Positions 11,210 to 59,799 of a DNA stretch of 64,000 bases are shown here, one piece after another. Position 1 is the first letter of the stretch, and every line of letters begins with the position of its first letter. The stretch is from Thermoflexibacter ruber (GTDB lineage: Bacteria; Bacteroidota; Bacteroidia; Cytophagales; Thermoflexibacteraceae), in the NCBI RefSeq assembly GCF_900113045.1, contig NZ_FONY01000022.1, positions 1 through 64,000 of the forward strand. Direction: 5' to 3'. A program made the position numbers and the translations under genes. The notes beneath the pieces were generated by a model that worked only from the letters and a program-made list of their open reading frames with translations, was not told the DNA's origin and made no database searches.

Positions 11210-11285
11210 AAGAATTTAGATTTTTCAACAAAGTTTGAAAAAAATACCCTTACCCAATGTCTTTTAGCGGACAATAGAACATGAA

Positions 11286-11329
11286 TAAAAAAACAAAAAA
11301 AGAACGGCGGAAAATCCATCGTCCTTTTT
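11286..11329 (-). terminator. Intrinsic-terminator-like hairpin with U-run in a divergent gap
   Basis: On the minus strand a 14-bp stem with one mismatch and two G-T pairs (11316-11329 with 11297-11310, loop 11311-11315) is followed by a T-rich tract (the A-rich run 11286-11300 on the plus strand). This is a good Rho-independent terminator form. It lies upstream of the minus-strand peroxiredoxin gene, where no minus-strand gene precedes it, so it could end a small RNA or act as a leader attenuator. Confidence 0.45.
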
Positions 11330-11407
11330 CAAAAAGCATACATACACATTAAAAATTTAAAAGTTTATTGCCTTTTTTTGAAAAGGTAAACAAGGGGAAT
11401 GAAGTTT

Positions 11408-11439
11408 TTTGAATAAATCGCTTTATTTATCTATATTTG
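11408..11439 (+). promoter_or_regulatory. Bacteroidota promoter for the PSCyt1/DUF1549/DUF1553 gene
   Basis: TTTG (11408-11411) and TATATTTG (11432-11439) are separated by 20 bp, matching the -33/-7 consensus. The start codon is 12 bp beyond the -7 box, implying a very short leader. Confidence 0.6.
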
Positions 11440-11451
11440 ATTGGATAAATA

Positions 11452-14268
11452 ATGATGAAAATGAAAAAAATATTCCTTTCGTTTATAGGTCTTCTATTGA
11501 TTGTAGTACTTGCTTTATTTAACTTTTCAGAGGTGCGTAATTATGCCAATGCTACATTTGGCTTAGATTTCTCGCCTATCAATGCCATTTTTCCTTCATC
11601 TCAAGAGATAGACTTCAACGCCGACATTCGCCCAATTTTTAATACCAAGTGCATCGCCTGTCATGGAGGAGTCAAGGAAAGTGGCGGTTTTAGTCTTTTT
11701 TCTCGTGAAGATGCTTTGCGGAAAACCAAATCGGGCAAGTCTGCTATTATCGTAGGAAAACCCGATGAGAGTGAAATGGTCAAACGCTTGCTTGCTAAAG
11801 ACCCAGAGGAGCGTATGCCCTATCATGCAGAACCTTTGAGCAAAGAGGAAGTAGAAAAAATACGACAATGGATTAGACAAGGGGCAAAATGGAAAGACCA
11901 TTGGGCATATCTTCCCTTAGAAAAACCAGAAATTCCAAAAATAGATACTGCTTGGGGAAAAAATCCTATTGATAATTTTGTTTTTGAAAAGCAGAAAGAG
12001 CATGGTCTTTCTCCTTCTCCGCCAGCAGATAGGGCTACTCTCATTCGTCGCTTGAGTTTAGATTTAATTGGCTTACCACCTACCTTAGAAGAAGTTGCTG
12101 ATTTTCAAAATGATAAATCAGAAAAAGCGCATGAAAAAGTAGTAGATAGGCTGCTTGCTTCGCCTCATTTTGGAGAGCGTTGGGCGGCAATGTGGCTCGA
12201 TTTAGCTCGTTATGCCGACTCTAAAGGTTATGAGAAAGATACCCCGCGCCAAATTTGGCGTTTTAGAGATTATGTAATCCAATCTTTTAACGAGGACAAA
12301 CCTTTTGACCAGTTTACCATAGAGCAATTAGCAGGGGATTTATTACCTGAACCCACTGAAAATCAACTTATAGCAACGGCTTATCACCGCAACACAACCA
12401 ACAATGATGAGGGTGGGACTGATGATGAGGAGTTTAGAACAACCGCTTTGATAGATAGAGTGAGCAACACTTGGGAAGTCTGGCAGGGCATTACTATGGG
12501 CTGCGTGCAGTGTCATTCGCACCCCTACGACCCTTTCCGACATGAAGAATTTTATACTTCTTTGGCTTTTTTTAATAATACCAGAGATGAGGATATTCCC
12601 GCAGAGTATCCTATTTATCAGCATTTTAAGCCAGAAGAAGAAGCAAAGATTTTAAAAATCAAAAATTGGATTGCTACTCAACTGACAGAAAGCGAAGCCA
12701 AGCAAAAAAGCAAAGAAATAGATTACTTGCTCAGAATAGGCGAGCCAAAAATCCATGCCCATAGCTTTGATACCCTAACCAATGCAGCAATGGTGGACGG
12801 AAAAATTTTAGGAGGTGGGCATTTGGGCTTTGCACGCCTCAAAAATATCGATTTATCAGGTAAAAAAGAACTTCTCTTGGCTTGTGGAACCAATCAAGAT
12901 AAAGGTTTAGTAGAAATCCGCAAAGACCGATTAGACGGAGAAGTTGTCGCTTCTTTCGTTCCTGAAAATACCAAAAGTTGGTGGTCAATGAAAAAGTTTG
13001 CCGTCAAACTCAAACCTACCGAAGGCAAGCATGACCTTTATTTCGTATTTAAAAATCCTACTTTTGAAAATCCACAAGATTATGTTTGCTTGATAGAATG
13101 GGTTTTATTCCTTGATAATCTGATAGATGAGAGCAAGCCAGATGCCTCAAAAATAAAACAAGAGATTTTGGCTTTGCTCAATACCAAAAGTGAAAACACA
13201 CCTATCATGCAGGAAAATCAGGGCGATTTCAGGCGAAAAACACAAGTTTTTATTAGAGGTAATTGGTTGGTCAAAGGACAGGAAGTGCAGCCCAAAACGC
13301 CCAAAGCGTTGCCCAAGTTTGAAAACTACGCACCTAATCGATTAGGCTTGGCAAAGTGGCTCGTAAGCCAGGAAAATCCACTGACCGCCAGAGTGATGGT
13401 CAATCGTTTTTGGGAACAGATTTTTGGGACGGGCATCGTAGAAACTTTGGAAGACTTTGGCTCGCAAGGTATTAAGCCTACTAATCAAAAACTTTTGGAT
13501 TGGTTGGCGGTGCAGTTTCGCGACGAGTATAAATGGAGTGTAAAAAAACTCTTGAAAACTATCGTGCTATCGGCTACCTATCAACAAAGTTCCAAATCAA
13601 ACAAAAATTTGATAGAAAAAGACCCTGACAATCGCTATTTGGCAAGGGGGGCAAGAGTACGCCTTTCTGCTGAGCAGATACGCGACCAAGCCTTAGCGGT
13701 AAGTGGGCTTTTGAGCAAAAAAATGTATGGACAAAGCGTCATGCCTCCACAACCTGAGGGGGTTTGGCAGGTAGTTTATAGTGGAGAAAAATGGGAAACA
13801 AGCAAAGACGGAGATGCTTGGCGTAGAGGAATTTATACCTTCTGGAGGCGGTCAGTACCTTACCCCTCTATGATGACTTTTGATGCTTCGGCAAGAGAGG
13901 TGTGTGTATCAAGGCGAATCAGGACAAATACACCTTTGCAAGCCTTAGTAACCCTCAACGATACGGTATATATCGCTGCGGCAAGAGGTTTAGCAAAGCA
14001 AATGCTCCAAGAGCAAGGTCTTGAAAATCAACTAAAAAAGGGATATGAACTCTTAGTTTTCAAAAAACCTACTGCACAGACTTTGAAAGTTTTGCATGAG
14101 CTTTATGAAAAATCCTTGAAATATTATCAGGCAAAACCTGATGAGGTAAAGAAAATAGTGGGCAAAGATGCAAAGCCGTCAGGTCTTAAAAACCTGACAG
14201 CTTTAGCCGCAACGACTGTAACCGCTAACGTCTTGCTGAACTTAGATGAAGTAATAATGAAGGAATAA
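11452..14268 (+). CDS. PSCyt1/DUF1549/DUF1553 domain protein (planctomycete-type cytochrome c)
   Basis: 938 residues. After an N-terminal hydrophobic anchor comes a PSCyt1 haem-c motif, CIACHGG, near residue 69. A DUF1549 domain follows ([54 protein letters not shown]), with a second CVQCH near residue 352. An unclassified insert spans about 430-600. The C-terminal DUF1553 domain has [47 protein letters not shown] and the closing LNLDEVIM. In planctomycetes and Bacteroidota such genes are normally followed by a DUF1501 sulfatase-like gene; here none follows. A 33-bp palindrome sits in frame near the 3' end. The function of the family, possibly oxidative degradation in the periplasm, is not established. 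Confidence 0.88.
14172..14204. repeat. 33-bp palindrome inside coding sequence (copy 1)
   Basis: Arms AAAGCCGTCAGGTCTT and AAAACCTGACAGCTTT flank a single central A and match at 14 of 16 positions. It is read in frame as part of the DUF1553 protein ([11 protein letters not shown]), just before the conserved C-terminus. It has the same length, symmetry and CAGGT/ACCTG core as the palindrome at 46904-46936. Confidence 0.6.
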
Positions 14269-14293: not shown

Positions 14294-14959
14294 TTAATTA
14301 ATAGACAGATACACTAAATAATTTGCTAACTTGATGTAGTTTTCCATGATGAGAGGGGCAGGTCTGAGTTTTTCCAATTGATGCTGATGCTGGTCTAAAA
14401 GTTTGAAAAACTGTGGGTTATTGTTGTATTTAGCAATAATAGCCCCTTTAAAACATCTATGTATTTGGTTATAAACATATTTCAAGGGCTGGTAGGGCTT
14501 ATCATTAAAAAGGCAGTCTAAATGCTTGATGTGCGAGTTGTGTTCTAAGAAATCAAATCCCCTACCTTTCATAAAATCTTTGATGGCTTGCACAGTAAAA
14601 AACACATCTTCTTGATTAGCAATTTTATAGCGTAAGTATTTAGTATCACTTAGCTTTCCTATGGAAATAATAAGCGTATTGGCATGTTTGCGGTACTCAG
14701 GCGTAACATCTAAGAACTGCTGGGCTAAATTTTCTACGGTATCTATGCGTACCCCTATGTTTACTTCTACCCAAAGTTCTGATTCGTAGCGTGTAGAAGT
14801 AAGTATAATATTTTGAAAGCCTGTTTCCGTAGGTTTGCGGAACTGGTAAAGTTCAGGCATCAAGTGAAAATTTCTTTTGGATAAAAATTGATTCAGATGC
14901 TCATACAAACTGGTTTCTAATTCTGTTAAAGTCATGGCATCGTTCCCTTTATGTTCCAT
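14294..14959 (-). CDS. Hypothetical cytoplasmic protein
   Basis: 221 residues with no signal peptide or membrane segment; an alternative start at Met9 (MTLTELET, 14935) is possible. It opens with an amphipathic helix (LETSLYEHLNQFLSKRNFHLMPE), then RKPTETGFQNIILTSTRYES and LWVEVNIGVRID. That layout is reminiscent of DUF4304-type proteins, but I cannot confirm membership. The C-terminal half is helical and basic. A -7-like box (TACTTTTG on the minus strand, 15000-15007) lies 41 bp upstream. It ends 26 bp from the convergent DUF1553 gene. No function is assigned. Confidence 0.6.
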   Translation of the reverse strand: MEHKGNDAMTLTELETSLYEHLNQFLSKRNFHLMPELYQFRKPTETGFQNIILTSTRYESELWVEVNIGVRIDTVENLAQQFLDVTPEYRKHANTLIISIGKLSDTKYLRYKIANQEDVFFTVQAIKDFMKGRGFDFLEHNSHIKHLDCLFNDKPYQPLKYVYNQIHRCFKGAIIAKYNNNPQFFKLLDQHQHQLEKLRPAPLIMENYIKLANYLVYLSIN

Positions 14960-15152
14960 TGTTTATTAGCTTATGCTGAGGTAGTATCCTTTATCAATAC
15001 AAAAGTATCAATATCTTTCAATCAAAAAATGAGATAATCAATTTTAATGTGAATTTATTATTATATCAAAACGTTAATCTAAGAACTATGTTTACACTGT
15101 GATAGAAAAATTATTTGTTTTAACTTTGTAGCTAATAAAAAATAACTCATTC

Positions 15153-16919
15153 ATGGCACAGCAGGAAACCGCAAGCGGTAATATTTTTGATAGTAAAATT
15201 CTTAAAAGGATTTTCGTTTTTGTCAAGCCCTACATTCATCTTTTCTACCTTTTAGTTTTTCTCATTATTTTTCAAGGTGTTATTACGCCTGTTCGTCCTT
15301 GGCTTACTCAACTCACTATGGACGACTATGTGGCGGCTGGAGATAAAGACGGCTTAGTAATGATGGTCGGCATACTTATAGCTGTAACTGCTATCCAAGC
15401 CCTTATCCAATTTGTTCAGGTATATCTTTCTGAATGGATTGGGCAGCACGTCATCAGAGATATTCGAATTAAGCTCTACCAGCATCTTACTACCATGAAA
15501 ACCCAATTTTATGACAAAACGCCTATTGGGAGATTGGTTACAAGAAATATCTCTGACGTAGAAACGCTATCAAGTGTTTTTACTGAGGGGCTTGCCTCGA
15601 TTGTAGGAGATTTACTCCAACTTGTATTTATCTTGGGCATCATGCTCTACACTGATTGGAAACTTACTTTGGTGAGCCTTTCTTCTATCCCGCTTTTATT
15701 TGTGGCTACTTATATTTTCAAGGAAAAGGTCAAACATTCTTTCAATCAAGTACGTGCCGCAGTAGCGAACCTGAACTCTTTTGTACAGGAGCATATTACA
15801 GGAATGAATATTGTGCAAATATTTAACAGTGAGGATATTGAATACGAAAAGTTCAAGAAAATCAATAAAGAACACCTCCGCGCCAATCTCAAATCTGTGC
15901 TGTATTACTCTGTATATTTTCCTGTAGCAGAGGTAATTGCGGCTATCACTACGGGTATGTTGGTTTGGTATGGGGGCAAGGGCGTACTCCAAGAATATAC
16001 CACTCTGGGTACATTGATAGCTTTTATCATGTATATCTCTCTGTTTTTCAGACCTATACGTATGATAGCTGACCGATTCAATACCTTGCAAATGGGCATA
16101 GTGAGTGCAGACCGAATTTTAAAACTATTGGATAGCAAAGACCAGATTCAGAATACAGGCACTTATCAACCTGAGCATCTCAACGGTCATGTGAAATTTA
16201 AAAATGTTTGGTTTGCTTACGAAGAGGAGAATTATGTGTTAAAAGATATTTCTTTTGAGGTAAAAAAAGGACAAAACTTAGCTTTGGTAGGAGCAACAGG
16301 TTCTGGTAAGTCCTCTATTATCAATCTACTCAGTCGTTTTTATGAAATCAATAAAGGACATATAGAAATAGACGGTATAGATATTAGAGAGTATGAACTT
16401 TCGGCACTTAGGTCAAAAATTGGGGTAGTCTTGCAAGATGTTTTTCTTTTTTCTGATACTATTATGAACAATATCACTTTGGGAAGGAAGGACATCAGCC
16501 GAGAAAAAGTCATACAAGTAGCCGAGTGGGTAGGGGCAAGGGAGTTTATAGATAGATTACCTAACGGCTTTGACTACAACGTCATGGAAAGAGGGGCTAC
16601 GCTTTCCGTAGGGCAAAGACAGTTGATTTCCTTCGTAAGGGCTATGGTATTTGACCCTGCTATTATTGTTTTGGACGAGGCAACTTCTTCCGTAGATTCT
16701 GAAACAGAGGAGCTTATACAAAATGCCATAGAAAAAATGATGAAAGGACGTACCTCTATCGTAATAGCTCATCGCTTGGCAACTATTCAAAAAGCAGACA
16801 AAATCATTGTCTTGGACAAGGGCGAAATCAAAGAAGTAGGCACTCACGAAGAACTATTGGAACACGAAGGATTTTATGCCCAACTTTATCAAATGCAGTA
16901 CAAAGAGTTGTTAGTTTGA
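15153..16919 (+). CDS. ABC exporter, fused membrane and ATPase domains (MsbA/MDR-like)
   Basis: 588 residues. A six-helix ABC transporter type 1 membrane domain (about 20-320) is followed by an ATP-binding domain. Walker A GATGSGKSS is near residue 382, Q-loop VVLQDVFLFSD, signature LSVGQRQ, Walker B IIVLDEATSSVD, then the H-loop AHRLATI. It probably works as a dimer in the inner membrane exporting a lipid, drug or peptide. There is no peptidase domain that would mark a bacteriocin exporter. The sensor kinase gene starts 40 bp downstream on the same strand. A TAACTTTG -7-like box at 15121-15128 lies 24 bp upstream of the start, without a good -33 element. Confidence 0.9.
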   Translation: MAQQETASGNIFDSKILKRIFVFVKPYIHLFYLLVFLIIFQGVITPVRPWLTQLTMDDYVAAGDKDGLVMMVGILIAVTAIQALIQFVQVYLSEWIGQHVIRDIRIKLYQHLTTMKTQFYDKTPIGRLVTRNISDVETLSSVFTEGLASIVGDLLQLVFILGIMLYTDWKLTLVSLSSIPLLFVATYIFKEKVKHSFNQVRAAVANLNSFVQEHITGMNIVQIFNSEDIEYEKFKKINKEHLRANLKSVLYYSVYFPVAEVIAAITTGMLVWYGGKGVLQEYTTLGTLIAFIMYISLFFRPIRMIADRFNTLQMGIVSADRILKLLDSKDQIQNTGTYQPEHLNGHVKFKNVWFAYEEENYVLKDISFEVKKGQNLALVGATGSGKSSIINLLSRFYEINKGHIEIDGIDIREYELSALRSKIGVVLQDVFLFSDTIMNNITLGRKDISREKVIQVAEWVGAREFIDRLPNGFDYNVMERGATLSVGQRQLISFVRAMVFDPAIIVLDEATSSVDSETEELIQNAIEKMMKGRTSIVIAHRLATIQKADKIIVLDKGEIKEVGTHEELLEHEGFYAQLYQMQYKELLV

Positions 16920-37983: not shown

Positions 37984-38595
37984 ATGTTCGAATCTGGCAC
38001 GGTTATTCTCATCAAGGCGGCATCCTCTGCTAAACCTATCAAAGTAAACATAGGCATCAATTGGGGTGCTATCGCTCAAAAAAAATTATTAGGTCTGTTC
38101 CCCAAATGGGAAAACGTAAACTTGGACATTTGCGTAGCGATATTTAATAACAACAAAGATATGATAGACCTGATATATCCCGCTAAGACTCACTCATCTG
38201 ACGGTGCGGTTTATCATAGTGGCGATGACACCACAGGCGACAAATCTATCAAAGAGGACAACAAAGACAACGAGGTCATTAGCATTAACTTTGAGAAACT
38301 TAGCCAAAATATCGTACAGATGGTTTTTTTCTTGGTCAGTGCAAATCGCCAAGATTTTGCGCATATCCCATATTCCAAAGTAAGAATTTACAGTGGAGAG
38401 GTACACCAAATAGAAAATATCTTCGGTGAGTACAATATCTCCGCCCAAAAGCAGTTTGCAGGAAAAGTAGCGATGGTCTTAGGCAAACTCTACAAAGAAG
38501 CAGAAAACTGGCAATTTAAAGCCATAGGAGAAGGGCTGACCTCTGAGAAATTGCTTAGTACGGTTTCGGTGATAAAGGAAAGGTTTTTGGGTTAG
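37984..38595 (+). CDS. TerD-family protein
   Basis: 203 residues with the TerD beta-sandwich pattern: KVNIGINWGA, NLDICVAIFNN, DLIYPAKTHSSDGAVYHSGDDTTGD (Ca-binding region, here read over residues 60-85), NEVISINFEKLSQNIVQMVFFLVS, KVRIYSGE and a final GKLYKEAENWQFKAIGEGL. TerD proteins occur in tellurite-resistance and chemical-stress operons and bind calcium. No TerB, TerC, TerZ or kinase gene is adjacent, so this is a solitary member and its role is unclear. It opens a tight same-strand run extending to 42408. Confidence 0.85.
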   Translation: MFESGTVILIKAASSAKPIKVNIGINWGAIAQKKLLGLFPKWENVNLDICVAIFNNNKDMIDLIYPAKTHSSDGAVYHSGDDTTGDKSIKEDNKDNEVISINFEKLSQNIVQMVFFLVSANRQDFAHIPYSKVRIYSGEVHQIENIFGEYNISAQKQFAGKVAMVLGKLYKEAENWQFKAIGEGLTSEKLLSTVSVIKERFLG

Positions 38596-41679: not shown

Positions 41680-42408
41680 ATGGCATTACAACTTGACCAC
41701 GTAGTACTTTTGGTTGAAAACCTCGATGAGGGCATAAAGCAATATCAAAAAGAGGGCTTCAAAGTAAGCAAAGGAGGCAAACACAACAACGGTGTTACAG
41801 AGAATGCACTCATTCATTTTAAAAACGGGACTTTTATAGAAATATTGGCTGTGCGAAAGCGTTGGAAAACAAAGTGGACAAAGCTACTTTTCCAAATTGG
41901 CTACTTTAAGGCTGACAGCCAATCCCCTCACTCAGGTTTCCAGCAAAGATTTGTAGGAAGAGCCTTGCTTTTTCCAAAGGGCATCATAGATTTTTGCCTC
42001 TTGGCTACCGCAGGCGAGCAAGATTTTTGGGAAGTCCAAAAGCGAAAAGTCCCAACTACCCATCTTACCTCTATGCAGAGATTAAAGCCTGACGGACAGG
42101 TGCTTACATGGAAAATTTTTACGCCTTTCTCTATGTATTTGCCTTTTGTCATGACCCCTTATGAGCCACCATTTTCCCCGCTGCCTGCCAATTTAGAGCA
42201 TGAAAACGGCATCAAAGGCATAGAGAAACTCAGTGTTTATATTCCTAAAAATAACTTTGAAAATGCCGTGCAGTCCTATAAACAATTTTTAGATAAGCAA
42301 ATAGCCTACTCTGATGAGGAAAAAGTCGTTTTCCAATTAGAAAAAGGGCAGATAGCTGTTTGCAAAGGTGATGTTCACTTAGGTTTTTCTATTTCGTATC
42401 TTTCCTAA
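41680..42408 (+). CDS. Glyoxalase-like (VOC) domain protein
   Basis: 242 residues of the 'glyoxalase-like domain' group. The first half has LQLDHVVLLVENLDEGIKQYQKEGFKVSKGGKH, with a His at the expected metal position, then NALIHFKNGTFIEILAV. The second half has IEKLSVYIPKNNFENAVQSY. It is longer than single-domain VOC proteins and probably binds or hydrolyses a small molecule; the function is unknown. It is the last gene of the run, and its final 30 bp overlap the convergent CHAT-STAND gene. Confidence 0.8.
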   Translation: MALQLDHVVLLVENLDEGIKQYQKEGFKVSKGGKHNNGVTENALIHFKNGTFIEILAVRKRWKTKWTKLLFQIGYFKADSQSPHSGFQQRFVGRALLFPKGIIDFCLLATAGEQDFWEVQKRKVPTTHLTSMQRLKPDGQVLTWKIFTPFSMYLPFVMTPYEPPFSPLPANLEHENGIKGIEKLSVYIPKNNFENAVQSYKQFLDKQIAYSDEEKVVFQLEKGQIAVCKGDVHLGFSISYLS

Positions 42409-45400
42409 CGCTTTTTTCCCTGTTAATACTATCCAAAGCAGAAAAACAAAACTCAAGAAAAAAACATAAGCCATTACCCATTTTTCTTGGATATTGCCTT
42501 TTTCAGTAAAATTGTAATAAAGTATCAAAGAAAAAAAGCAAAATATCAATAGCTCAGGCAGAAGATTTGTAGCTAATACAAACCAATTTTTTTCTCTAAT
42601 CAACTGCTTTATCAAAGGTTCGTAGTACCGATATACCTTTTCACCTACCCACAGAGTAAACCAAAAGAAGAAATAAACAGCGATTCCCCACCCAAAAAGG
42701 TCAAACCTGTCGGGAGTAGCGTACTGAGTAAGAAACCACGATAAATAGCTATACGCAAAAAATAGTAAGCCCAAAGTTTTTATATATCTTTTTTGATAAA
42801 ATGAGGATTCTGATAGATGCAAAGTCCACAAAACTAAAGCATTAAAAGCATAAAACAAAGGTAAGAAAATATAAAAGTATCCTTTTTCAACTATTATTTC
42901 GTAGTCTTGCAAGTTGCCATAGACAAAGAGCTGATAGATAGCATAACTGTTGATAGTCAGGACAATTACCTCTGGTGCGGCATACAAAACTAAGGAAGTC
43001 CACTTTTTTTCCAATACGTAGCTTCGGATTTCTTCTTTTTGCTCAAAAAGAATCAAGCACAAGTAGAAAAATGCTAAAATAATGAAGTTGTCGGCTAATT
43101 TATTGATGATGTTCTCCTCCATTTCGGTAAAAAATTCGCGATAAATGGCGGCAATGAGAAAAATAAAAGTGGCTAAGCCATACATGAATATTTTGTAATA
43201 TCTTTTTTCTTTATAAAGTTGAATACATACAGGAATATATCTAATCAGGATTAGCAAAATAGTCATAAAAGAAACTATTTGAGCTAAGATAAACTTTTGA
43301 GCATCATATTGTTGCCACTTTTCCTTGAAGGAGGCAATATCATACTTTATCTTCTGCCTTATGCTAAGTTGTGGGGCGGTGGTTCGTTCCAGCCAATCTC
43401 GTAAATGATAAATGGGAAAACGGAGAATCATTTTATTTTCTTGTAAATCCATGAGATATTTCCCATCGTTAGAAAATGAGAAACCCTTGGTTTCGCTGGA
43501 GAGGTAGTGTATGTCTTCAAGGCGTCCTTGAAAATCGTAAATTCGTATTTGATTAGAACTTAGTGCTTGGTTTGCATAACTTGTCTGCCCAACTACCTGA
43601 ACAAGAATATGGTTGTCTTGAGCAAGCTGAATTTTGCCAAGAAAACTATCCCCTATCCTGATACTTCTATTGAAAATCTCTTGAAGTACGACTTTATCAT
43701 TTTTGATTTGCAAACGGTACAAGCTAAAGTTCTTATCTCTATTGATAATCCCCACATATTGAAGGTCTTTGGAAAAACTAATACTATTTTTATAATCCGT
43801 ATAAGCGAGAAAGTCCTTGATAGGTAAAAAACGATAGGTACTATCTTGCTTGTCTTTGTAAAGTAGTACTGCATTTCTATCCGTGTAGGCGATTATTTTG
43901 CTGAAATCTTGGTTAAAAGCTACTTCTGCCGAGTTATATCCGTACCATGACAAGCCGTAAGCTACTGTATAAAAATCTGAAGAAGAAGGATTATCGTCTG
44001 TTACTTCTGCCAAGGTATCTACACTTACATTTTCCCAACTTGAGGAGTTAGGATTTGATTTTTTGGAACTTAGTTTTAAAAGTTTATTGGCATACCAAAT
44101 AAACAAAGCATTATTTTGATAGGAAAGAAACTGAAACTTATATGCGCCAGATACAGAGTCTTTAGGCAAAGTTAGCACCGACTCAGCAGAGCGTTTTCTT
44201 GGAGAAAAGGCTTTGATTTGGTAGGCTGTGTCTATTACAAACCAATTAGTGCTGTCCACCGCTAAAAAATCAGTCCAACTACTATCCGCCTTGAAAAGCT
44301 GGCTGGCTTCTCCTCTCTTATATGGATACACTCGGAAAGAATGATTTTTAATCCATATCACTAACTGCTTATGGTCAAGTGTATTTTTGTAAATTACTTG
44401 ATTGGTATAGTCAAAAATTTCTTGGGGGAAATCAGGTAATTCTTCTGCTAATTCCCCAAACTCTGCACTGCTTCTGCGAAAAGCTAAAAAAGCGGCGTCA
44501 TTCATTTTATTTTGGCTAAATCGTGCATCAAAAGGCAGCTCCCGATAGCGAATTTCTTGGTAAGGAGGTAGCCAAAACTTGCCCTCTGCCTTATGAGTAC
44601 GATAACTTTCGCTGACTTTTCTAAAATTATCAAAAACCTCGCTTTTTTCTTTATTTTCTACCTGCTCGGCAAAAGTTGCCGCCTGCTCTGCCAAGCGTAT
44701 CGCCAAGTCTTTCACAGAGTCTATTTCCGAGTTTACATTTTGGGCAGAAAGAAGCATCAGCTCTTTCATTTTGGCAGAATCCGCACTTTTTACTGACCGA
44801 TTCCATTGGTACAAAGAAAACAAAGCTGTAATCAAAATCATGGAAAGTGCTGCAATAGCATACCTTCTGCGTCTGCGCCTTGCTTTTTCTTTCTCTAAAC
44901 GAACCTCTTGGCTGGCGGCTACAAATTTTTCTTCATTCTCCGTCCAGACCCTCATGCCTTCCTTGCCTTTTTCCACAATCTCGACCTCCAACTCATCTAA
45001 GACATATTTGCTATCTATAAGAAAATCACTAAGTTGGTTTTCCAAAATACGACTTGCTCTTTGCCCTGCTCTTTCTGATTTTCTAAATTCATTTTTCACC
45101 AAAGGGGCAAGCGTGTCGTGAGTAAGGTTAGTCCGATTATCTCCCGCTTCTACCAAAAGATACAAGTCTTTGAGTTTGTAGAGCAAAAGTTCTGCCTTCT
45201 CGGGGATATGGGCATAGTGTTTTCGTATTTCCTCCAAACTTCTACTTCCCGCCGTTCCTAAATGCGTAGTGTGAAAGAACAAAATGTCTAAGGGTAAGCC
45301 CGAACTTTCCAATTCTGGATTCCACTCTGCCAATTTTTTACTTTGCTGACGGAAGAAATCATCTAATAAAAAACCCTCTCTTTTCAGATTTTGGTATAAT

Positions 45401-47193
45401 TCTACGGTAAAAGTAGGATTTTGTTTATCCCGTACCCTGTCCCACATTTTGGTAAGCAAAATCTGCAACACAGGTGCAACAGGCGAGTCCTTATCCTCGA
45501 GTAGGTCATCTGCGATAATGACAGGTAAGTTCTTGTCCACCTGTAAATTGTATCTTTTTTTCAGTGTAGGTGTGTCTGTAAGCCCTTTGAAAATATCCAA
45601 AATATCTTTGCGAGAAAGTGGCTCTAAAAAAACCTTAGCCCGTGGAATGGCATACTCTTTAAAACTTTCCTCAAACTCAGGGTGATATTCCTTGCGATAC
45701 CCTAAAATTAGCTTGCCTTGTGGCGCAAAAACAGGAAAGTTAAAAATAACTTTTAAACATTGGGCTAAATCATCTAACTCATTACTTATCTGCTTATTAG
45801 GTCTGGTAAAAAGTTCTTCTGCTTGGTCTAAAATCACCAATAGCGGCTTTTGAAAATGAGTTTCAGCTTCGTGCCATGCTTTGAGTAAAGGTAAAAAAGG
45901 CGTTTCGCCTACTTGGGCAAGAAATCTCTGCTCTATCGCCGCATCAAATTTTTTAGAAGTATCAAAATTTTTGTCTATCTGATATTTTTTTCCCTCAGAA
46001 AAAGAAGAAGAAAGTTCTCTTTCCAAAGTTTCAATGGTAGCCGAGAGGTTTATTTTCTCGCTTTCTGCAAGTGTAAGCAACTGATTTTTAAGATTTTCTA
46101 ACAGAAGAAGGCGTTTGTCTTCCGCTCCTTTTTTATTATTTTCTTCTATGTATTTATGCTCTTTAGCAGGGATTTGATTTTGTAAAACCAAACCTTCCGC
46201 CAATGTGCCTATCAAGCCCAAGTTTTGATTTCGGCGGAGATAGACTACCTGATGCGAATTTTCCAAACGTGGATTTAGCCCTGCATCAAACAAAGAGGAC
46301 TTGCCCGTTCCCGACTGCCCGTAGAGCAAAATGACAGGTGGAGCTTGTGTATCGATAATCTTATTGTATAAATCTCTGACATAGAATGACCTACCAAAAA
46401 ATAGTTCTGCATGAGGGCGTTCATAGCGTTTTAAAAACAAAAAAGGGGACTCGGGCAGGGCAAAAGTTGGGGGAATTGGCGGCAAGCCAAAAAGTGGATT
46501 GTCCACCTCCTCTGGCAAGTTCCATTCTTTGACTTTTTCTGCTCCTTCGCGAAAGTAAATCTCCCAAGGGAAGCGGTCTGGAGCAGTTTCTGTTTGGCTT
46601 TTGCGGTATAGTCCTCGCAAGTTGGCTGTACCTTCCTTCATTTTTACCTCGTCAGTTGCCTCAAGCCATGCTTTTTCCAAACTCGCTCCTTTGGCAAGCC
46701 CAGAGTAAAAGCGAATAGACAAAGTAGTAGCTACATCATCATTGATAGAGTTACTCGTGCCTATGACAGCAGGGATACCCGCTTTGACCAACTCCAAAGA
46801 CTGTTGCTGGGTGCTACACCCATTGAAAAATACCAACTTTAATCCTTTCTGCCTTGCAAAAAAAGAAACTAAACCTTCGCCATGAGCAACCTTGTTTGCA
46901 TTAAAATCTGGCAGGTTTTCAAAACTTGCCAGATTTGAGGACTCTAATAACAACTGATAGCCGTCTGCATGACCGCCATAGTGGAAAATTGCAATTTGTT
47001 CCTTGTAGGTTTGGAAAATGTCAAAAATTTGCTCTATGCTTACATTGGCTCTTTCTATGACTTCGCAAAGTCCCTCTTTGACAGCAGGTTGGAGTACCTT
47101 TCGGATACCGTCAAGTTCCCAAGGCAAGTTCCTGAGGTAACGCGCATTGTCGACCTTGTCATTTGCAAAAGCCAGAAAGATAATTGGTTTCAT
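42379..47193 (-). CDS. CHAT protease - STAND NTPase - multi-pass membrane protein
   Basis: 1604 residues from ATG 47193, chosen because MKPIIFLAFAN starts the CHAT fold; the ATG at 47262 would add 23 residues. Order: a CHAT caspase-like domain (1-220) with catalytic HYGGHAD (His75) and FFNGCST (Cys126); a nSTAND-type P-loop NTPase (about 250-750) with FGRSFYVRDL, Walker A GQSGTGKSS (292-300) and Walker B LLVILDQAEELF; a basic segment and one membrane helix near 830; about 480 residues of irregular beta-rich repeats resembling a decayed propeller; and about nine C-terminal membrane helices. CHAT-STAND proteins are suspected signal-activated proteases in conflict or cell-death systems. That role is inference here. 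A 33-bp palindrome lies in frame between His75 and Cys126. It diverges from sbcC (138-bp gap). Confidence 0.85.
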   Translation of the reverse strand: MKPIIFLAFANDKVDNARYLRNLPWELDGIRKVLQPAVKEGLCEVIERANVSIEQIFDIFQTYKEQIAIFHYGGHADGYQLLLESSNLASFENLPDFNANKVAHGEGLVSFFARQKGLKLVFFNGCSTQQQSLELVKAGIPAVIGTSNSINDDVATTLSIRFYSGLAKGASLEKAWLEATDEVKMKEGTANLRGLYRKSQTETAPDRFPWEIYFREGAEKVKEWNLPEEVDNPLFGLPPIPPTFALPESPFLFLKRYERPHAELFFGRSFYVRDLYNKIIDTQAPPVILLYGQSGTGKSSLFDAGLNPRLENSHQVVYLRRNQNLGLIGTLAEGLVLQNQIPAKEHKYIEENNKKGAEDKRLLLLENLKNQLLTLAESEKINLSATIETLERELSSSFSEGKKYQIDKNFDTSKKFDAAIEQRFLAQVGETPFLPLLKAWHEAETHFQKPLLVILDQAEELFTRPNKQISNELDDLAQCLKVIFNFPVFAPQGKLILGYRKEYHPEFEESFKEYAIPRAKVFLEPLSRKDILDIFKGLTDTPTLKKRYNLQVDKNLPVIIADDLLEDKDSPVAPVLQILLTKMWDRVRDKQNPTFTVELYQNLKREGFLLDDFFRQQSKKLAEWNPELESSGLPLDILFFHTTHLGTAGSRSLEEIRKHYAHIPEKAELLLYKLKDLYLLVEAGDNRTNLTHDTLAPLVKNEFRKSERAGQRASRILENQLSDFLIDSKYVLDELEVEIVEKGKEGMRVWTENEEKFVAASQEVRLEKEKARRRRRRYAIAALSMILITALFSLYQWNRSVKSADSAKMKELMLLSAQNVNSEIDSVKDLAIRLAEQAATFAEQVENKEKSEVFDNFRKVSESYRTHKAEGKFWLPPYQEIRYRELPFDARFSQNKMNDAAFLAFRRSSAEFGELAEELPDFPQEIFDYTNQVIYKNTLDHKQLVIWIKNHSFRVYPYKRGEASQLFKADSSWTDFLAVDSTNWFVIDTAYQIKAFSPRKRSAESVLTLPKDSVSGAYKFQFLSYQNNALFIWYANKLLKLSSKKSNPNSSSWENVSVDTLAEVTDDNPSSSDFYTVAYGLSWYGYNSAEVAFNQDFSKIIAYTDRNAVLLYKDKQDSTYRFLPIKDFLAYTDYKNSISFSKDLQYVGIINRDKNFSLYRLQIKNDKVVLQEIFNRSIRIGDSFLGKIQLAQDNHILVQVVGQTSYANQALSSNQIRIYDFQGRLEDIHYLSSETKGFSFSNDGKYLMDLQENKMILRFPIYHLRDWLERTTAPQLSIRQKIKYDIASFKEKWQQYDAQKFILAQIVSFMTILLILIRYIPVCIQLYKEKRYYKIFMYGLATFIFLIAAIYREFFTEMEENIINKLADNFIILAFFYLCLILFEQKEEIRSYVLEKKWTSLVLYAAPEVIVLTINSYAIYQLFVYGNLQDYEIIVEKGYFYIFLPLFYAFNALVLWTLHLSESSFYQKRYIKTLGLLFFAYSYLSWFLTQYATPDRFDLFGWGIAVYFFFWFTLWVGEKVYRYYEPLIKQLIREKNWFVLATNLLPELLIFCFFSLILYYNFTEKGNIQEKWVMAYVFFLSFVFLLWIVLTGKKALGKIRNRKT
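46904..46936. repeat. 33-bp palindrome inside coding sequence (copy 2)
   Basis: AAATCTGGCAGGTTTT, one C, then AAAACTTGCCAGATTT: 16-bp arms with one mismatch. It encodes NLASFENLPDF within the CHAT domain of the minus-strand gene, read in the same codon phase as copy 1 at 14172-14204 (GLKNLT versus SFENLP). Confidence 0.65.
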
Positions 47194-47331
47194 CTCCTTG
47201 TGAATTATTCCCTCTATACCCAATAACAATGAACCAGCAATATACATTATTTTGTAAAACATTGATTAGCTTTTTCATATATTTTCATTATTTTTACTGT
47301 AAAAAAGAAAATTGATTGTAAATATCTAAAA

Positions 47332-50300
47332 ATGAAAATTTTAGCACTCCGTTTCAAAAATCTGAACTCTCTCCGTAAAGACAAGCAAGGCGATTTTTTT
47401 GAAATAAACTTCCAAGCCTCTCCACTGAAAGAGGCTGGACTTTTTGCCATTACAGGAGCAACAGGAGCTGGGAAAAGTACCATTTTAGATGCCATTACTT
47501 TGGCACTTTATGGGGTTGCGCCTCGCTTTGGGAAAGACAAGGCAAATGAGATATTAAGCAGAGGGGCAGCCGATTGCTTTTCAGAAGTCCATTTTGAAGT
47601 ACGAAATAAAATTTATACTTCTAAGTGGCTACTCCTTAGAAAAGTAAAGAAAAGTGGAGAAATAGAATATGCAGAGAAAATGGAATTGGCAGAGATGGGA
47701 GGAACTATCTTAGAAGCAAACAAACTCAAAGAAGTAAAGGAAAAAGTTGAGCAACTTACGGGCTTGGATTATCAGCGTTTTTTGCGTTCTGTTATGCTGG
47801 CACAAGGTGATTTTTCTGCTTTTCTCAAAGCCGATGAAAAAAGCAGGGGAGAACTCTTAGAAAAAATCACAGGGACAGAAATCTACTCCCAGCTTTCCAA
47901 ACGAGCTGATGAAAGGCGATTTGAGGAGAAAAAAAAATTAGAACTTTTAGAAAGCCAAATAGATGAAAGTAAGTTGCTTTCAGAAGAACAGAAAACAGCT
48001 ATCAAAAGCCAACTTGTTGAAAATCAGAAAGAAAAAGAAAAATTAGACCAAGTAATAGCACTTACCAATGAGCAAATCAAAAAAGCCAAAGAAATTCAAG
48101 AGTTAAATAAACAATTAGCTGATTTTGAGCAAACTTATCAGCAAGTTATGCTACAACAAGAAAATGCAAAAAATGATTTTGAAAAATTGCTAAGGCACGA
48201 AAAGGCAGCTCACTTCAAAGGGGAACTCAGCGAAATAGAAACGCTTTCTAATTTAGTGCAAACAGAACAGGAAAAATTAGATAAAGAACAATCACAACTC
48301 CCTATAAAAGAAATAGAAATCAAAAAAAAGCAACAAGAGTTCAATCAGATAAAAGAAAACTTAGCCAAAGCAGAGCAGGAGCAGAATGCCGAATTTCCTA
48401 AGATAGAGCAAGCAGAAAAGTTGGATTTCCAGATAAGCGAAATGAATAAAAACTTAGATGCCACTCGCAAGCAAATAGGCGAACAGGGAAAAGAAATAAA
48501 TCTTGCCTATCAGAAAAAGCAACACATAATGCAAGTCATAGAAAGTGAAAAAGAAAACTTAGCCAAAATACAGCAGTATATTTTTGAAAATCACCAAGAT
48601 AAATTACTTGTCCAAGATTTAGGTGTCATCAGACAAAAGTTAGACTATCTTTTTGAGTTGAAAAAAGAAATAGACAAAAACTCACAAAGGAAAAAAGAAA
48701 ATGAAGATAGCACTAAAAAGGTACATGAAGAACAGAAAAAACAAAGAGAAATCTTAGAAAAATACCAAAAGGAAGTAGCAGAAATTGTCCAGAAAACTAC
48801 ACAAGTACACGCAGAAAAAGAAACAGTTTTACAAGGCAGAGAAATACAAGAAGTAGAAAAGGCTTACAATCAGCTTTTGTCTAATCTAAGTAAGTACAAG
48901 CAAATAGCTGATATTTCTTTGGAATTCGAGAAATTAACAGAAGTGATAAGATTGCTAAGAGAAGATATTTTTAAAAATAGTAATGATGAAAAAAGAGTAG
49001 CTGTTTTTTTAGCAACTCTCAAAGAAGAAAAAATACATCTTCAAGAAAAATTGGATTTGGCAAGGGAACTCTATGAAAAAGAGCAACTGATACAAAGTTA
49101 TAAGCAAGTAAGGCAGACACTTAGAAAAGGTGAACCTTGTCCACTTTGCGGAGCAACTCATCACCCCTTTGCTCATTATCAAGCAGATACCAAAGCCAAA
49201 GAGCAAACTTGGAGAGCATATCAAAACGAGTTGGACAGGACAAATGAAAAAATAAAAAAGGCAGAAGTCGAGGCAAAAGGCTTAGAAGTTACACTCAATA
49301 AACAAACACAAGAATTAGCGGATAATCAAATAAAAATCCAAGAATTACAAAAGCAATTTACTGAACTTTCTGCTACACTCTCCTCACAAATTGCAATTCA
49401 TGAAAGCAATCAAGTTCGCAATCAGTGGGAGGAGAAAGAAAAACACCTACAAACTCTTGAAAAGCAAAATATGCTTCTGAAAGAAAAGCAAAAAGAAATA
49501 GAACACTTAGGAAAAGAAGAAGAAAGCTGGAAAAGTAAAATCCAAAAACTTGAAATAGAGCTAACTAAAATAAATACTGACTTAGCTAATTACGAAAAAG
49601 AACGCCAGCAATTAGAGCAGGAAGGTTCGCAGATTTTAGACAAAGGAAAAAAAGAAAAAGAGGCACTCTTAGACCTTTTGAAAAAGTACAAGGAGGCTAT
49701 TCCTTTGGAAAAGGACAAAGCAACTTGGCTCAGAAAATTGGAAGAGAGGGTAAATAGCTATCAGCAAAACATTGATAATGAAAAGATTATTTTAGATAAG
49801 ATTAATAAATTGCAAGGTGAGGAAGGACAAACTACGGCTACTGTTATAGAAATGGAAAAACAGTTGAAAAACCTCCAAAGAGAACAAGAAAAAATGCAAA
49901 ATGAGCTAAAAGATTTGCAAAGCAATCGCAAGGCAATTTTTGGAGAAAAAAATACCCAAGAAGAAAAAATAAGAATTACACAAACAATTAAAAATGAGCA
50001 GCATAGATTAGAAAATTTGAAAACTGCTCTTACCAATGTGCAACAAGAGGTAGAGATTTTGAAAAGTAGCATTGCCCAAGTAAAAAATCGCTTACAAGAA
50101 AATCGACAAACTTTAGCTCATAAGACAGACCAACTCCAAAAAAGAATACTCCCTGATTTTGAGAATATTGAATTACTCAAACAATCACTGCTTTCTAATG
50201 AAGCAGTAGTTCAGATTCGTAAGCTAAAAGAAGAATTGGGTAATAAGTTGGTACAATGTGAAACCAATATCAAAATGACAAAGGAAAACCTCCAAAAATT

Positions 50301-51000
50301 GAGTAGTTCAGCAGGCATCAGCTATGAAACTTTGGAAGTTTTAATAGCTAACTTAGAAAAGTACAAAAGCGAGTTAAGAATTTTAAACGAAAATATCAAT
50401 GAGCAGAGTTTTAGACTTCGAGAAAATGAAAATTTAGAAAAACAATTCAGTGAGAAACGCAAAGAGATTGACAAACAACGCAAGGAATACCAACGCTGGA
50501 AAACTTTGGTCGACATCATAGGCTCAAAAACGACCAATGAGTTGCGTGCCTTTGCCCAAAGTCTTACGCTTGCTCATTTGATTGCATTGGCAAACAAGCA
50601 CTTAGAGAAAATAAACCCACGCTACCACCTAAGAAAAAAAGATAAAGCAGAATTAGACATGGAAATAGTCGACAAAGACCAAGCAGATAACATTCGCTCT
50701 ATCAATACGTTGTCTGGCGGAGAAACTTTCTTGGTAAGTTTAGCTTTGGCGTTAGGACTTTCTGACTTGGCTACGGCGGGCAGACAGACGCAGATTCGCT
50801 CTTTGTTTATAGATGAAGGCTTTGGTACGCTTGACCCCGATACCTTAGCCGATACGATTAATACTTTGGAAAACTTGCAGTTAGGGGGAAAACAAATTGG
50901 CATCATTTCCCACGTAGAAGAACTCAAAAACAGGATTACTACTCAAATCCAAGTACAGCCCAAAGGCAATGGGGTAAGTGAGATACGGATAGTAGGTTAA
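47332..51000 (+). CDS. sbcC: SbcC-like SMC-family ATPase (exonuclease subunit)
   Basis: 1222 residues with Rad50/SbcC layout. The N-terminal half-ATPase has Walker A TGATGAGKSTILDAITLALYG (residues 41-61). Next come LDYQRFLRSVMLAQGDFSAFL, a first coiled coil, the zinc hook GEPCPLCGATHHP (Cys603 and Cys606), and a second coiled coil of about 450 residues. The C-terminal half-ATPase has signature INTLSGGETFLVSLALALGL, Walker B RSLFIDEGFGTLD and ISHVEEL. With SbcD it forms a nuclease cutting hairpins and protein-blocked DNA ends. sbcD is not adjacent, which is unusual. Divergent from the CHAT-STAND gene. Confidence 0.93.
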   Translation: MKILALRFKNLNSLRKDKQGDFFEINFQASPLKEAGLFAITGATGAGKSTILDAITLALYGVAPRFGKDKANEILSRGAADCFSEVHFEVRNKIYTSKWLLLRKVKKSGEIEYAEKMELAEMGGTILEANKLKEVKEKVEQLTGLDYQRFLRSVMLAQGDFSAFLKADEKSRGELLEKITGTEIYSQLSKRADERRFEEKKKLELLESQIDESKLLSEEQKTAIKSQLVENQKEKEKLDQVIALTNEQIKKAKEIQELNKQLADFEQTYQQVMLQQENAKNDFEKLLRHEKAAHFKGELSEIETLSNLVQTEQEKLDKEQSQLPIKEIEIKKKQQEFNQIKENLAKAEQEQNAEFPKIEQAEKLDFQISEMNKNLDATRKQIGEQGKEINLAYQKKQHIMQVIESEKENLAKIQQYIFENHQDKLLVQDLGVIRQKLDYLFELKKEIDKNSQRKKENEDSTKKVHEEQKKQREILEKYQKEVAEIVQKTTQVHAEKETVLQGREIQEVEKAYNQLLSNLSKYKQIADISLEFEKLTEVIRLLREDIFKNSNDEKRVAVFLATLKEEKIHLQEKLDLARELYEKEQLIQSYKQVRQTLRKGEPCPLCGATHHPFAHYQADTKAKEQTWRAYQNELDRTNEKIKKAEVEAKGLEVTLNKQTQELADNQIKIQELQKQFTELSATLSSQIAIHESNQVRNQWEEKEKHLQTLEKQNMLLKEKQKEIEHLGKEEESWKSKIQKLEIELTKINTDLANYEKERQQLEQEGSQILDKGKKEKEALLDLLKKYKEAIPLEKDKATWLRKLEERVNSYQQNIDNEKIILDKINKLQGEEGQTTATVIEMEKQLKNLQREQEKMQNELKDLQSNRKAIFGEKNTQEEKIRITQTIKNEQHRLENLKTALTNVQQEVEILKSSIAQVKNRLQENRQTLAHKTDQLQKRILPDFENIELLKQSLLSNEAVVQIRKLKEELGNKLVQCETNIKMTKENLQKLSSSAGISYETLEVLIANLEKYKSELRILNENINEQSFRLRENENLEKQFSEKRKEIDKQRKEYQRWKTLVDIIGSKTTNELRAFAQSLTLAHLIALANKHLEKINPRYHLRKKDKAELDMEIVDKDQADNIRSINTLSGGETFLVSLALALGLSDLATAGRQTQIRSLFIDEGFGTLDPDTLADTINTLENLQLGGKQIGIISHVEELKNRITTQIQVQPKGNGVSEIRIVG

Positions 51001-58752: not shown

Positions 58753-59799
58753 CTATGGATTTACAAACATCGCCTGAATTTTTTCTGAAGTATAGGTTTG
58801 GATTTTACCATTTTCCTCATAAATCAAAAATATTTCTAATCCTTGCTTTTGGGCTAACCCAATAGCTTTTTCTTTTCCTAAGACCATCATAGCGGTAGCA
58901 TAAGCATCAGCAGAGATAGCATCTTTGGCAAAAACAGTAGCACTGAGCAAAGAGTGTTGGACGGGGTAGCCTGTTTTAGGGTCTATGGTATGGGCGTATT
59001 TCTTGCCGTCTTTGACATAAAATTTTCGGTAATTGCCTGAGGTAACTAAGGCTTGGTTGTCTAACTGCACAATAGCTTGCATTCTTTTTCCCCCACTCTC
59101 TTCGTAGAGCGGGTTTTCTATGCCGATAGACCAAATTTTACCTTGCTCATTTTTGCCTTTACAAAGCACTTCGCCGCCGATTTCTACCATAAAATTGGCA
59201 ATACCGTTTTCTTCTAAAAAATCTCCTATGACATCTACTCCATACCCTTGGGCAATGGCATTAAAATCTAACTGCACATGCTTTTTTAATTTTTTTACCC
59301 TTTTTTCATTAAACTCAATATTGTGAAAACCAATAAGTTGTAATAGAGAATCTATTTTGGGTTGTTCTATTTGGTCTTTGCGGTTAGGTCCGAACCCCCA
59401 TGCCTTGACCAAGGGCATAACAGTAGGGTCAAAAGCCCCATTACTGGCATGGTAAACTTCTTCGCTTTTTTTGAGTACAGGGTAAAAAAACGGATATTTG
59501 TATTGGATAGAATCTGTCTTATTATTGAATGTAGAAATTTCAGAATCAGGGATATAAGTAGAAAGACATTGATTAAAGGCGATTAAGATAGAATCTATTT
59601 CTTTTTTAAAGTTGCGTGCTTGAGCATCTAAGTATTTGATGGTGTAGGTTGTTCCCATAGTTTCTCCATTGACGATGACTAATTTTTCATTAGTTTGATT
59701 ATCAGGCACTTGATTTTGATTTCTTAGTACCCAGACTAACATAATGACGATGAGTAATATGGCACTGTAAATAATATTTTTTTTATCGTATCTGAACAT
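58753..59799 (-). CDS. apbE: FAD:protein FMN transferase (ApbE)
   Basis: 348 residues. An N-terminal membrane anchor (IIYSAILLIVIMLVWVL) is followed by the ApbE core: GETMGTTYTIKYLD, STYIPDSEISTFN, GAFDPTVMPLVKAWGFGP, LDFNAIAQGYGVD, FMVEIGGEVLCKG, SGNYRKFY, HTIDPKTGYPV and the metal-site DAISADAYATAMMVLG. It attaches FMN to a Thr of periplasmic flavoproteins such as NqrC or RnfG; neither is in the window. The -7 box CAAAGGTA (TACCTTTG on the minus strand) is at 59834-59841. Confidence 0.92.
   Translation of the reverse strand: MFRYDKKNIIYSAILLIVIMLVWVLRNQNQVPDNQTNEKLVIVNGETMGTTYTIKYLDAQARNFKKEIDSILIAFNQCLSTYIPDSEISTFNNKTDSIQYKYPFFYPVLKKSEEVYHASNGAFDPTVMPLVKAWGFGPNRKDQIEQPKIDSLLQLIGFHNIEFNEKRVKKLKKHVQLDFNAIAQGYGVDVIGDFLEENGIANFMVEIGGEVLCKGKNEQGKIWSIGIENPLYEESGGKRMQAIVQLDNQALVTSGNYRKFYVKDGKKYAHTIDPKTGYPVQHSLLSATVFAKDAISADAYATAMMVLGKEKAIGLAQKQGLEIFLIYEENGKIQTYTSEKIQAMFVNP

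Follow-up and report, generated by a model that had tools for sequence, protein, structure and literature searches.

Among bacterial NLR-like proteins, most of those characterised detect phage products in the cytosol. The CHAT proteases of type III CRISPR systems, SAVED-CHAT and TPR-CHAT (Craspase), are activated by cyclic oligoadenylate or guide RNA and are not known to contain a STAND NTPase or a membrane part. Closer in design are the EACC2-caspase proteins, described in the accessible part of Kaur et al. (2021, PMC8195603) as a constant caspase joined to a variable C-terminus, possibly CHASE2 with transmembrane (TM) helices or a multi-TM domain. STAND proteins are presented, in the available portion of PMC6468293, as ADP-bound monomers that become ATP-bound multimers upon sensing, and the available portion of Dore et al. 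(2024, PMC10907252) reports STAND conflict proteins with a C-type-lectin (CLec) sensor, predicted to be periplasmic in one target. Here, we analysed a 64,000-nucleotide stretch of DNA from Thermoflexibacter ruber (contig NZ_FONY01000022.1, positions 1 to 64,000; the window), in which one gene encodes a CHAT caspase-like protease, a STAND NTPase and a large membrane domain in a single protein. This combination had been proposed in a first-pass annotation made from the sequence alone, and it is supported in our study by Pfam, profiles and hydropathy; the coordinates and the length of 1604 residues given there were also confirmed. The features of the gene, with the basis of each, are as follows.

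42379..47193, minus strand, whole gene, a single gene of 1604 residues plus stop (open reading frame (ORF) analysis)
46504..47193, minus strand, CHAT caspase-like protease domain, residues 1-230 (PF12770, and the relatives' profile against the solved chain 8tl0)
46969..46983, minus strand, HYGGH motif, His71 to His75, of which His75 is presumably the catalytic histidine (position and conservation in relatives)
46816..46818, minus strand, Cys126 of the NGCST motif, presumably the catalytic cysteine (position and conservation in relatives)
45385..46446, minus strand, nSTAND1 NTPase, residues 250-603 (PF20703, 3.7e-24)
46294..46320, minus strand, Walker A motif GQSGTGKSS, residues 292-300 (alignment)
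45814..45840, minus strand, Walker B region LVILDQAEE, residues 452-460 (alignment)
44884..45384, minus strand, C-terminal portion of the STAND core, carrying the HDTLAP motif, residues 604-770, a putative winged helix (conserved H692, D693, A696 and P697)
44803..44859, minus strand, first TM helix (TM1), residues 779-797 (hydropathy)
44404..44793, minus strand, stalk, residues 801-930, predicted extracytoplasmic (follows TM1; partly helical in a low-confidence model)
43414..44403, minus strand, probable degenerate beta-propeller, residues ~931-1260, predicted extracytoplasmic (LST8 match, model strands, Foldseek)
43165..43467, minus strand, juxtamembrane helix, first C-terminal TM helix and KRYYKI loop, residues 1243-1343 (stretch common to triple-TIR proteins)
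42382..43413, minus strand, polytopic domain, residues 1261-1604, about nine helices, C-terminus predicted cytosolic (hydropathy, model, charge)
42382..42618, minus strand, extra helical hairpin, residues 1526-1604 (mostly unaligned in the relatives G001, G002 and G003; resembles residues 1390-1464)

An alternative upstream ATG at 47262 would give a protein of 1627 residues. The start at 47193 was preferred because most aligned relatives begin at the KPxIFLAFAN motif or within a few residues of it.

We favour, with a probability of roughly 0.55, the reading that this single protein is anchored in the inner membrane and acts as an NLR-like envelope-surveillance receptor that switches on its CHAT protease. 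The order of domains read from the sequence is the effector, STAND NTPase and sensor order of NLR-like receptors, with the C-terminus as the presumed sensor. Under this reading, a cytosolic CHAT protease would be kept inactive by the STAND NTPase in the resting state, and the input would be a periplasmic propeller together with the polytopic membrane domain. The trigger would be something that happens at the envelope, for instance the entry of a phage, the presence of a foreign membrane protein or lost envelope integrity; the signal would pass via TM1 to the NTPase, leading to nucleotide exchange and oligomerisation, and clustering would bring the CHAT domains together for the cleavage of cytosolic proteins, with dormancy, death or a stress response as the outcome. 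Of this picture, the sequences show the domain order, the intact catalytic and Walker residues, the exchange of C-termini between family members, the presence of part of the module on TIR effectors and the charge bias; the topology, oligomerisation, protease activity, trigger, substrate and outcome are predictions.

Compared with the described systems, the protein shares with EACC2-caspase and CHAT-CHASE2 proteins a constant caspase-like protease placed before a variable C-terminal input. It differs from them in several ways. With CHAT beginning at residue 1 there is no space for an EACC2 domain ahead of it (a search with a named EACC2 model was not made), and TRADD-N, DUF1822 and ECF sigma-factor are absent from what Pfam matched in the six scanned neighbours of the gene. 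In addition, nSTAND1 lies between protease and sensor, and a propeller-polytopic module replaces CHASE2. With the STAND proteins in the available portion of Dore et al. (PMC10907252) it has in common a STAND NTPase and a predicted periplasmic sensor, whereas theirs are CLec sensors diversified by diversity-generating retroelements, and that portion mentions no polytopic propeller module. With SAVED-CHAT and Craspase it shares the predicted CHAT fold. Within its own genome, the CHAT-nSTAND1-WD40 paralogue C56 has the same succession of protease, nSTAND1 and repeats and is 52% identical over residues 2-912, but it has one TM helix only and no C-terminal membrane bundle; most proteins of the CHAT-nSTAND1-WD40 type carry canonical WD40 arrays, which the window protein lacks. 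A Gloeothece plasmid nSTAND1-WD40 protein, annotated as CHAT, likewise has a protease part, nSTAND1 and repeats. Caspase or CHAT proteins with membrane sensors (CHASE2, multi-TM) are already in print, and what is new is the variant with nSTAND1 and the propeller-polytopic module; among the open-licence papers found on CHAT, nSTAND and STAND sensors, no title or abstract beginning names this module. CHAT-CHASE2 itself was found in both Nostoc plasmid proteins scanned (L143:1849-4206 and L145:1804-4158). Both genes stand directly after DUF1822 genes, one of them also with a sigma-70 family gene, and these neighbourhoods fit those published for EACC2-caspases, as far as the accessible part of PMC8195603 gives them.

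The CHAT assignment is borderline by Pfam alone: PF12770 matches the protein at 5e-5 with 23.3 bits, just below the 24-bit cut-off, and reaches 26.5 bits, above the cut-off, at the same place in a six-frame search of the T. ruber genome. A profile of 23 related CHAT domains matched 8tl0, a SAVED-CHAT structure according to the available part of PMC11417357, at 3.2e-23, and this was the sole PDB sequence matched at 0.01. To compare residues, we took every ORF in the fetched stretches of relatives that matched the CHAT part at 1e-8 (42 rows). H71, G74, H75, N124 and C126 are kept in 41 of them, the remaining row (L054) being cut before these positions, and His71, His75 and Cys126 are invariant in the 23-row alignment. 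The His75/Cys126 dyad named by the first-pass annotation is therefore present in all 41 relatives that cover it. The T. ruber genome (5.50 Mb in 123 contigs) has 18 CHAT places. Any CHAT place was found in 148 of 296 phylum genomes, and among the rows listed none besides T. ruber has more than 12 first-look candidates. Another protein of its own genome (L065:7071-8777) carries the same CHAT subtype fused to AAA_35.

The NTPase is recognised without such ambiguity, since nSTAND1 (PF20703) matches all 17 aligned proteins and its score for the window protein (3.7e-24) is far above the cut-off. G292, G297, K298, S299 and S300 are invariant in the 17-row alignment. Residues were also checked in the 24 rows that match the NTPase, where the Walker A residues G292, G297 and K298 occur in 23 of the 23 readable rows (L059 is cut and reads X at this motif), D456 of Walker B in 24/24 and E460 in 23/24. 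The first-pass assignment of a Walker A/B STAND-type NTPase is borne out by these results; relatives lacking the His/Cys dyad or the Walker motifs were looked for, and none was seen among the rows readable there. A single-protein phmmer match to human NLRP1 around the P-loop was weak (0.004) and was not used.

A hydrophobic helix (TM1) follows the NTPase, preceded by an arginine-rich stretch with 9 K/R in the preceding 15 residues compared with 4 in the following 15. The same bias, with K/R higher in the 15 residues before the post-NTPase helix than after it, was observed in 18 of 18 family proteins measured (L052 and L053 were left out of this count). At the other end, the hydropathy scan gave eight separate C-terminal peaks above threshold, and a ninth helix (~1468-1488) was added from the secondary structure that a model of low confidence shows, so that the single helix plus about nine C-terminal helices of the earlier description hold with this one model-derived member. 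The net charge of the C-terminal loops (K+R minus D+E), with the helix set assigned by hand, is positive inside and negative outside in 4/4 sequences. These charge counts, on which the topology rests, suggest a periplasmic propeller and a cytosolic C-terminus.

Between TM1 and the helix bundle, the first-pass annotation had noted a beta-rich stretch of 480 residues; residues ~931-1260 look like a degenerate beta-propeller. A C-terminal profile matched the LST8 propeller at 1.1e-4 among PDB sequences. AlphaFold2 models, built from an alignment of the window protein and L015 only, had a mean predicted local distance difference test (pLDDT) score of 33.7 for residues 1-814 and 42.6 for residues 765-1604; the latter shows blade-like strands over residues ~931-1260, and the 50 Foldseek hits listed from it are mostly propellers, with TM-scores up to 0.31, a list that we take as weak propeller support only. 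WD40 Pfam models gave no match to the window protein at E-values up to 1. A degenerate propeller is the probable identity of the stretch.

Within the polytopic domain, the hairpins 1390-1464 and 1526-1604 resemble each other, with a Smith-Waterman score of 54 compared with 28.6±4.7 for shuffled sequences (reached by 0/60 shuffles) and an hhalign E-value of 2.4e-5 (probability 75). The pair 1326-1393/1390-1466 is weak (1/60 shuffles; hhalign probability 13), and a repeat of four hairpin units was rejected, the remaining 4 of 6 pairs being at or near chance (11 to 49 of 60 shuffles). The window protein thus apparently has one duplicated hairpin, not a repeat array, and one hairpin more than its orthologues. 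Helices at the far C-terminus with an apparently duplicated hairpin are also what one might find if this end were a pore-forming effector, with the STAND part oligomerising, the helices opening a channel and CHAT trimming or releasing it, and multi-TM domains behind caspases are proposed as pores in the accessible part of PMC8195603. We regard this as improbable: no pore family is among the Pfam matches, and the distribution of C-termini in the family also speaks against it.

That distribution was obtained from samples of genomes, which are draws from each group and not full sets. Six places in the T. ruber genome are related to the window protein, the window included; 10 of 98 genomes chosen as relatives match at 1e-10, and 10 of 395 class genomes match a CHAT-nSTAND1 profile at 1e-20, the own genome included in both counts. 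Our family list comprises 24 NTPase-bearing proteins from the fetched stretches, with the window protein among them. Two (L054 and L062) are cut before the CHAT part, which we infer for both, and two others (L045 and L059) are cut before the membrane helix, which leaves 22 proteins assessable for helix and C-terminus. In 20 of these, all except L103 and L104, a hydrophobic helix stands just after the NTPase. The C-termini that follow are diverse: WD40 models match 10 of 17 aligned members, one CHAT-nSTAND1-TM protein ends in leucine-rich repeats (L049:8785-12318) and another in an FGE-sulfatase domain (L101:5564-9001), and L056 and L057 have short tails only after the core. The helix bundle was found in 3 of the 22, namely the window protein, G001 and G002; a fourth genome, G003, has a core piece (L045) and a C-terminal piece (L078) on separate contigs, which are probably one gene of the polytopic form. 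Soluble-repeat ends are therefore common among relatives and the polytopic end is uncommon, as the first-pass annotation had stated, and the survey places this end in one clade (window, G001, G002 and probably G003).

A tree was built from 22 core sequences, L054 and L062 being left out of the 24. In it, the window protein, G001 and G002 form a clade at 100/100, which the G003 piece joins at 100/100, pointing to a single origin of the polytopic form. When the C-terminal 708 residues were searched against 395 phylum genomes, the window alone was matched, in a search in which the module carriers G001-G003 gave no row. As judged from these sequences, the family is a constant CHAT-nSTAND1 core, usually with one TM helix, to which exchangeable C-termini are attached. 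A slot that holds WD40, leucine-rich repeats or FGE in paralogues is not where a pore would be expected. Since a single TM helix suffices in most relatives, the membrane part could instead be a mere anchor, with sensing left to the propeller or to partners; we give this little credence, because about nine helices, and bundle residues invariant in the four aligned sequences, exceed the needs of an anchor.

One further arrangement was observed in G021 (L074:11468-14350 and 14338-16092), where a second ORF, of 960 residues and with an NTPase match, has its start overlapped by a CHAT ORF on the same strand, so that effector and switch lie in two adjoining genes; this 960-residue ORF was left out of the family counts.

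Evidence of a different kind comes from proteins that carry another effector. A profile (A6) made from the C-termini alone of the window protein, G001, G002 and G003 gave four hits on 13 family genomes, all from the own clade, and nine on 291 order genomes. The five new ones belong to one genus of another family in the same order, with best E-values per genome of 2.6e-8 to 1.3e-4, and lie in ORFs of 1392-1403 residues (L126-L130). Pfam finds three TIR_2 stretches in each of the three of these proteins scanned. Aligned to the first of the five, the remaining four show 65-80% identity, and all five have one helix after the TIR part and 11 C-terminal hydropathy peaks; the CHAT-nSTAND1 profile had no match at 0.01 among the ORFs of these stretches. 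Compared with the window protein, they have three TIR domains in place of CHAT-nSTAND1 and 11 C-terminal peaks versus about nine helices, and they have in common with it, in the same order, related TM1-stalk and propeller-end/TM2 regions. In the common stretch of ~100 residues, the propeller end is followed by a juxtamembrane helix (PxLSxxEKxxYxIAxL), by TM2 and by a K-x-Y-x-K-I loop, and a second match covers TM1 and the stalk.

The membrane ends were compared with hhalign over a region picked after the match had been seen, giving an E-value of 7.9e-9 over 99 columns. In a control of 100 hydropathy-binned column shuffles the score was 18.0±3.7 with a maximum of 30.9, versus 67.8 for the real pair; the reversed control gave 16.1. 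With an own-clade profile (A12) and no filters, all five TIR proteins matched at ≤1.1e-5, and the next hit outside the clade among the ORFs scanned had an E-value of 0.058. A profile of the membrane domain with the TIR proteins included (A10), run on 257 class and 238 phylum genomes, gave extra matches (one at 9e-4, three at 1.6e-4 to 0.007) that were all short, two with an internal stop, and were treated as noise. As this noise is as strong as the weakest A6 match to a TIR protein (1.3e-4), the homology rests on the stronger matches, on its presence in 5/5 proteins and on the shuffle control.

We conclude from these comparisons that the module, or its core, occurs with two effectors, CHAT-nSTAND1 and TIR. 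TIR domains are usually effectors themselves, which would make a pore joined to them a redundant second effector. An anchor would agree with the TIR-protein match being strongest beside TM2, and less well with the 11 C-terminal peaks of these proteins. Because part of the module is joined to TIR effectors, an input role is favoured over a pore or a plain anchor, short of proof. This is also where the first-pass proposal of a membrane-perturbation sensor that triggers proteolysis has gained independent support, namely for the C-terminus as an input module; membrane perturbation as the trigger, proteolysis as the response and any role against phage are putative. The predicted extracytoplasmic propeller, the paralogue family, the TIR fusions and the published caspases with membrane sensors go beyond that earlier account. 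Triple-TIR cores, in turn, carry other inputs: a Kovacikia plasmid protein (L137:4992-8141) has a similar core (43% identical) joined to CHASE2, and in a Bernardetia plasmid protein (L136:3986-6493) the core (55%) is joined, judged by eye, to a TM helix plus coil, so that effector and input appear to be swapped on both sides.

It is possible, and we hold it tentatively, that the propeller-polytopic module is an undescribed portable envelope sensor which Cytophagales attach to CHAT-STAND or triple-TIR death effectors. If so, it would be a counterpart of membrane-anchored innate immune receptors, with an extracytoplasmic sensor wired to a caspase-like protease or to TIR, and a receptor placed to monitor the envelope on the outer face of the inner membrane would have a different vantage point from the cytosolic receptors mentioned above. 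If the module is a sensor, trigger specificity should follow it when it is exchanged between the two effectors, and the TIR fusions would make effector/sensor recombination in bacterial immunity directly testable.

The regions of the protein also differ in conservation. When the window protein is compared with G001, CHAT is 80% identical, two NTPase blocks are 77 and 75% identical and residues 621-770 reach 82%; the values are lower for the stalk (62%), the propeller (39%) and the membrane domain (58%, and 49% with G002). By these identities the input side diverges faster than CHAT, as does one NTPase insert. This bears on the possibility that the protein is a signalling or developmental protease, like HetF in division and differentiation, reporting envelope or growth state, and not an immune receptor. 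The accessible part of PMC8406250 describes the CHAT protein HetF as a divisome component in Anabaena, and a HetF model of NCBIfam gave a weak local match (4.7e-4 over residues 134-172, far below cut-off). We consider this role unlikely, since many divergent paralogues with swapped sensor repeats, and an input region that changes faster, are features more reminiscent of conflict systems.

Several results agree better with such a signalling role than with an immune receptor, or otherwise weigh against the receptor that we favour. All 3 of 3 genomes of the genus keep the gene, a genome of another genus has it in two pieces, and the TIR form lies in a conserved locus, with a related ferredoxin-like gene after the triple-TIR gene in 5/5 stretches and a related ABC ATPase before it in 4/5; this retention and this stable chromosomal neighbourhood are both less like a mobile defence gene, and the gene surroundings point to stable chromosomal genes, not to mobile islands. 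No defence-type names were found among the scanned window neighbours, apart from generic matches of an SbcC-like gene, and no family of PADLOC-DB 2.0.0 matches the protein at E-values up to 0.1. Clearly defence-like neighbours were seen only at G002, those of G001 having been compared with the window only, with one scanned. Phage records contained no relative of the whole protein, and viral contigs none for the core profile. Regarding the module, only 3/5 TIR proteins pass with A6 at default filters and 1e-3, compared with the five found in the genome search; neither the propeller nor the remaining part of the bundle shows significant homology to the TIR proteins, and the match over TM1 and the stalk may be one that proteins of this kind give in general. 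The input is not the only part to diverge, the NTPase insert 341-437 being 47% identical between the window protein and G001, and synonymous sites are saturated, making the ratio of nonsynonymous to synonymous rates unusable and a selection test impossible, so that identity alone is quoted. Finally, the AlphaFold models are too poor for use.

As for mobility, the whole protein has six matches on plasmids, all confined to parts of residues 3-345 and none above 31% identity. The idea of a mobile gene was rejected, the C-terminal part having no plasmid match and phage records and viral contigs having given none, as noted above. The neighbouring genes are as follows.

47332-51000, SbcC-like gene, divergent from the CHAT-nSTAND1 gene
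41680-42408, glyoxalase-like gene, tail-to-tail overlap with the CHAT-nSTAND1 gene
L015:5513-7167 and 11186-12349, AbiLi/PDC-M38-like ATPase with small partner, and TIR protein, near the G002 orthologue (within 8 kb)

Other window neighbours include a GNAT-like gene, an ABC ATPase and TerD. None of the window neighbours scanned was recognisable as a dedicated substrate, in agreement with the first-pass annotation; no genome-wide search for gasdermin or other substrates was made. A conserved operon partner was rejected, as no ORF around the G002 orthologue matches the window at 1e-8. In the 20 kb around the G001 orthologue (ORFs of at least 90 residues) there is one other match, near window positions 58753-59799 and 73% identical, and in further stretches of the G001 contig three ORFs match two window ORFs at 28-40% identity. 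The TerD-family gene at window positions 37984-38595 precedes one that encodes a carboxypeptidase-regulatory-like domain, and the CHAT-nSTAND1 gene of G074 (L061) likewise has a TerD-like ORF ~5 kb away.

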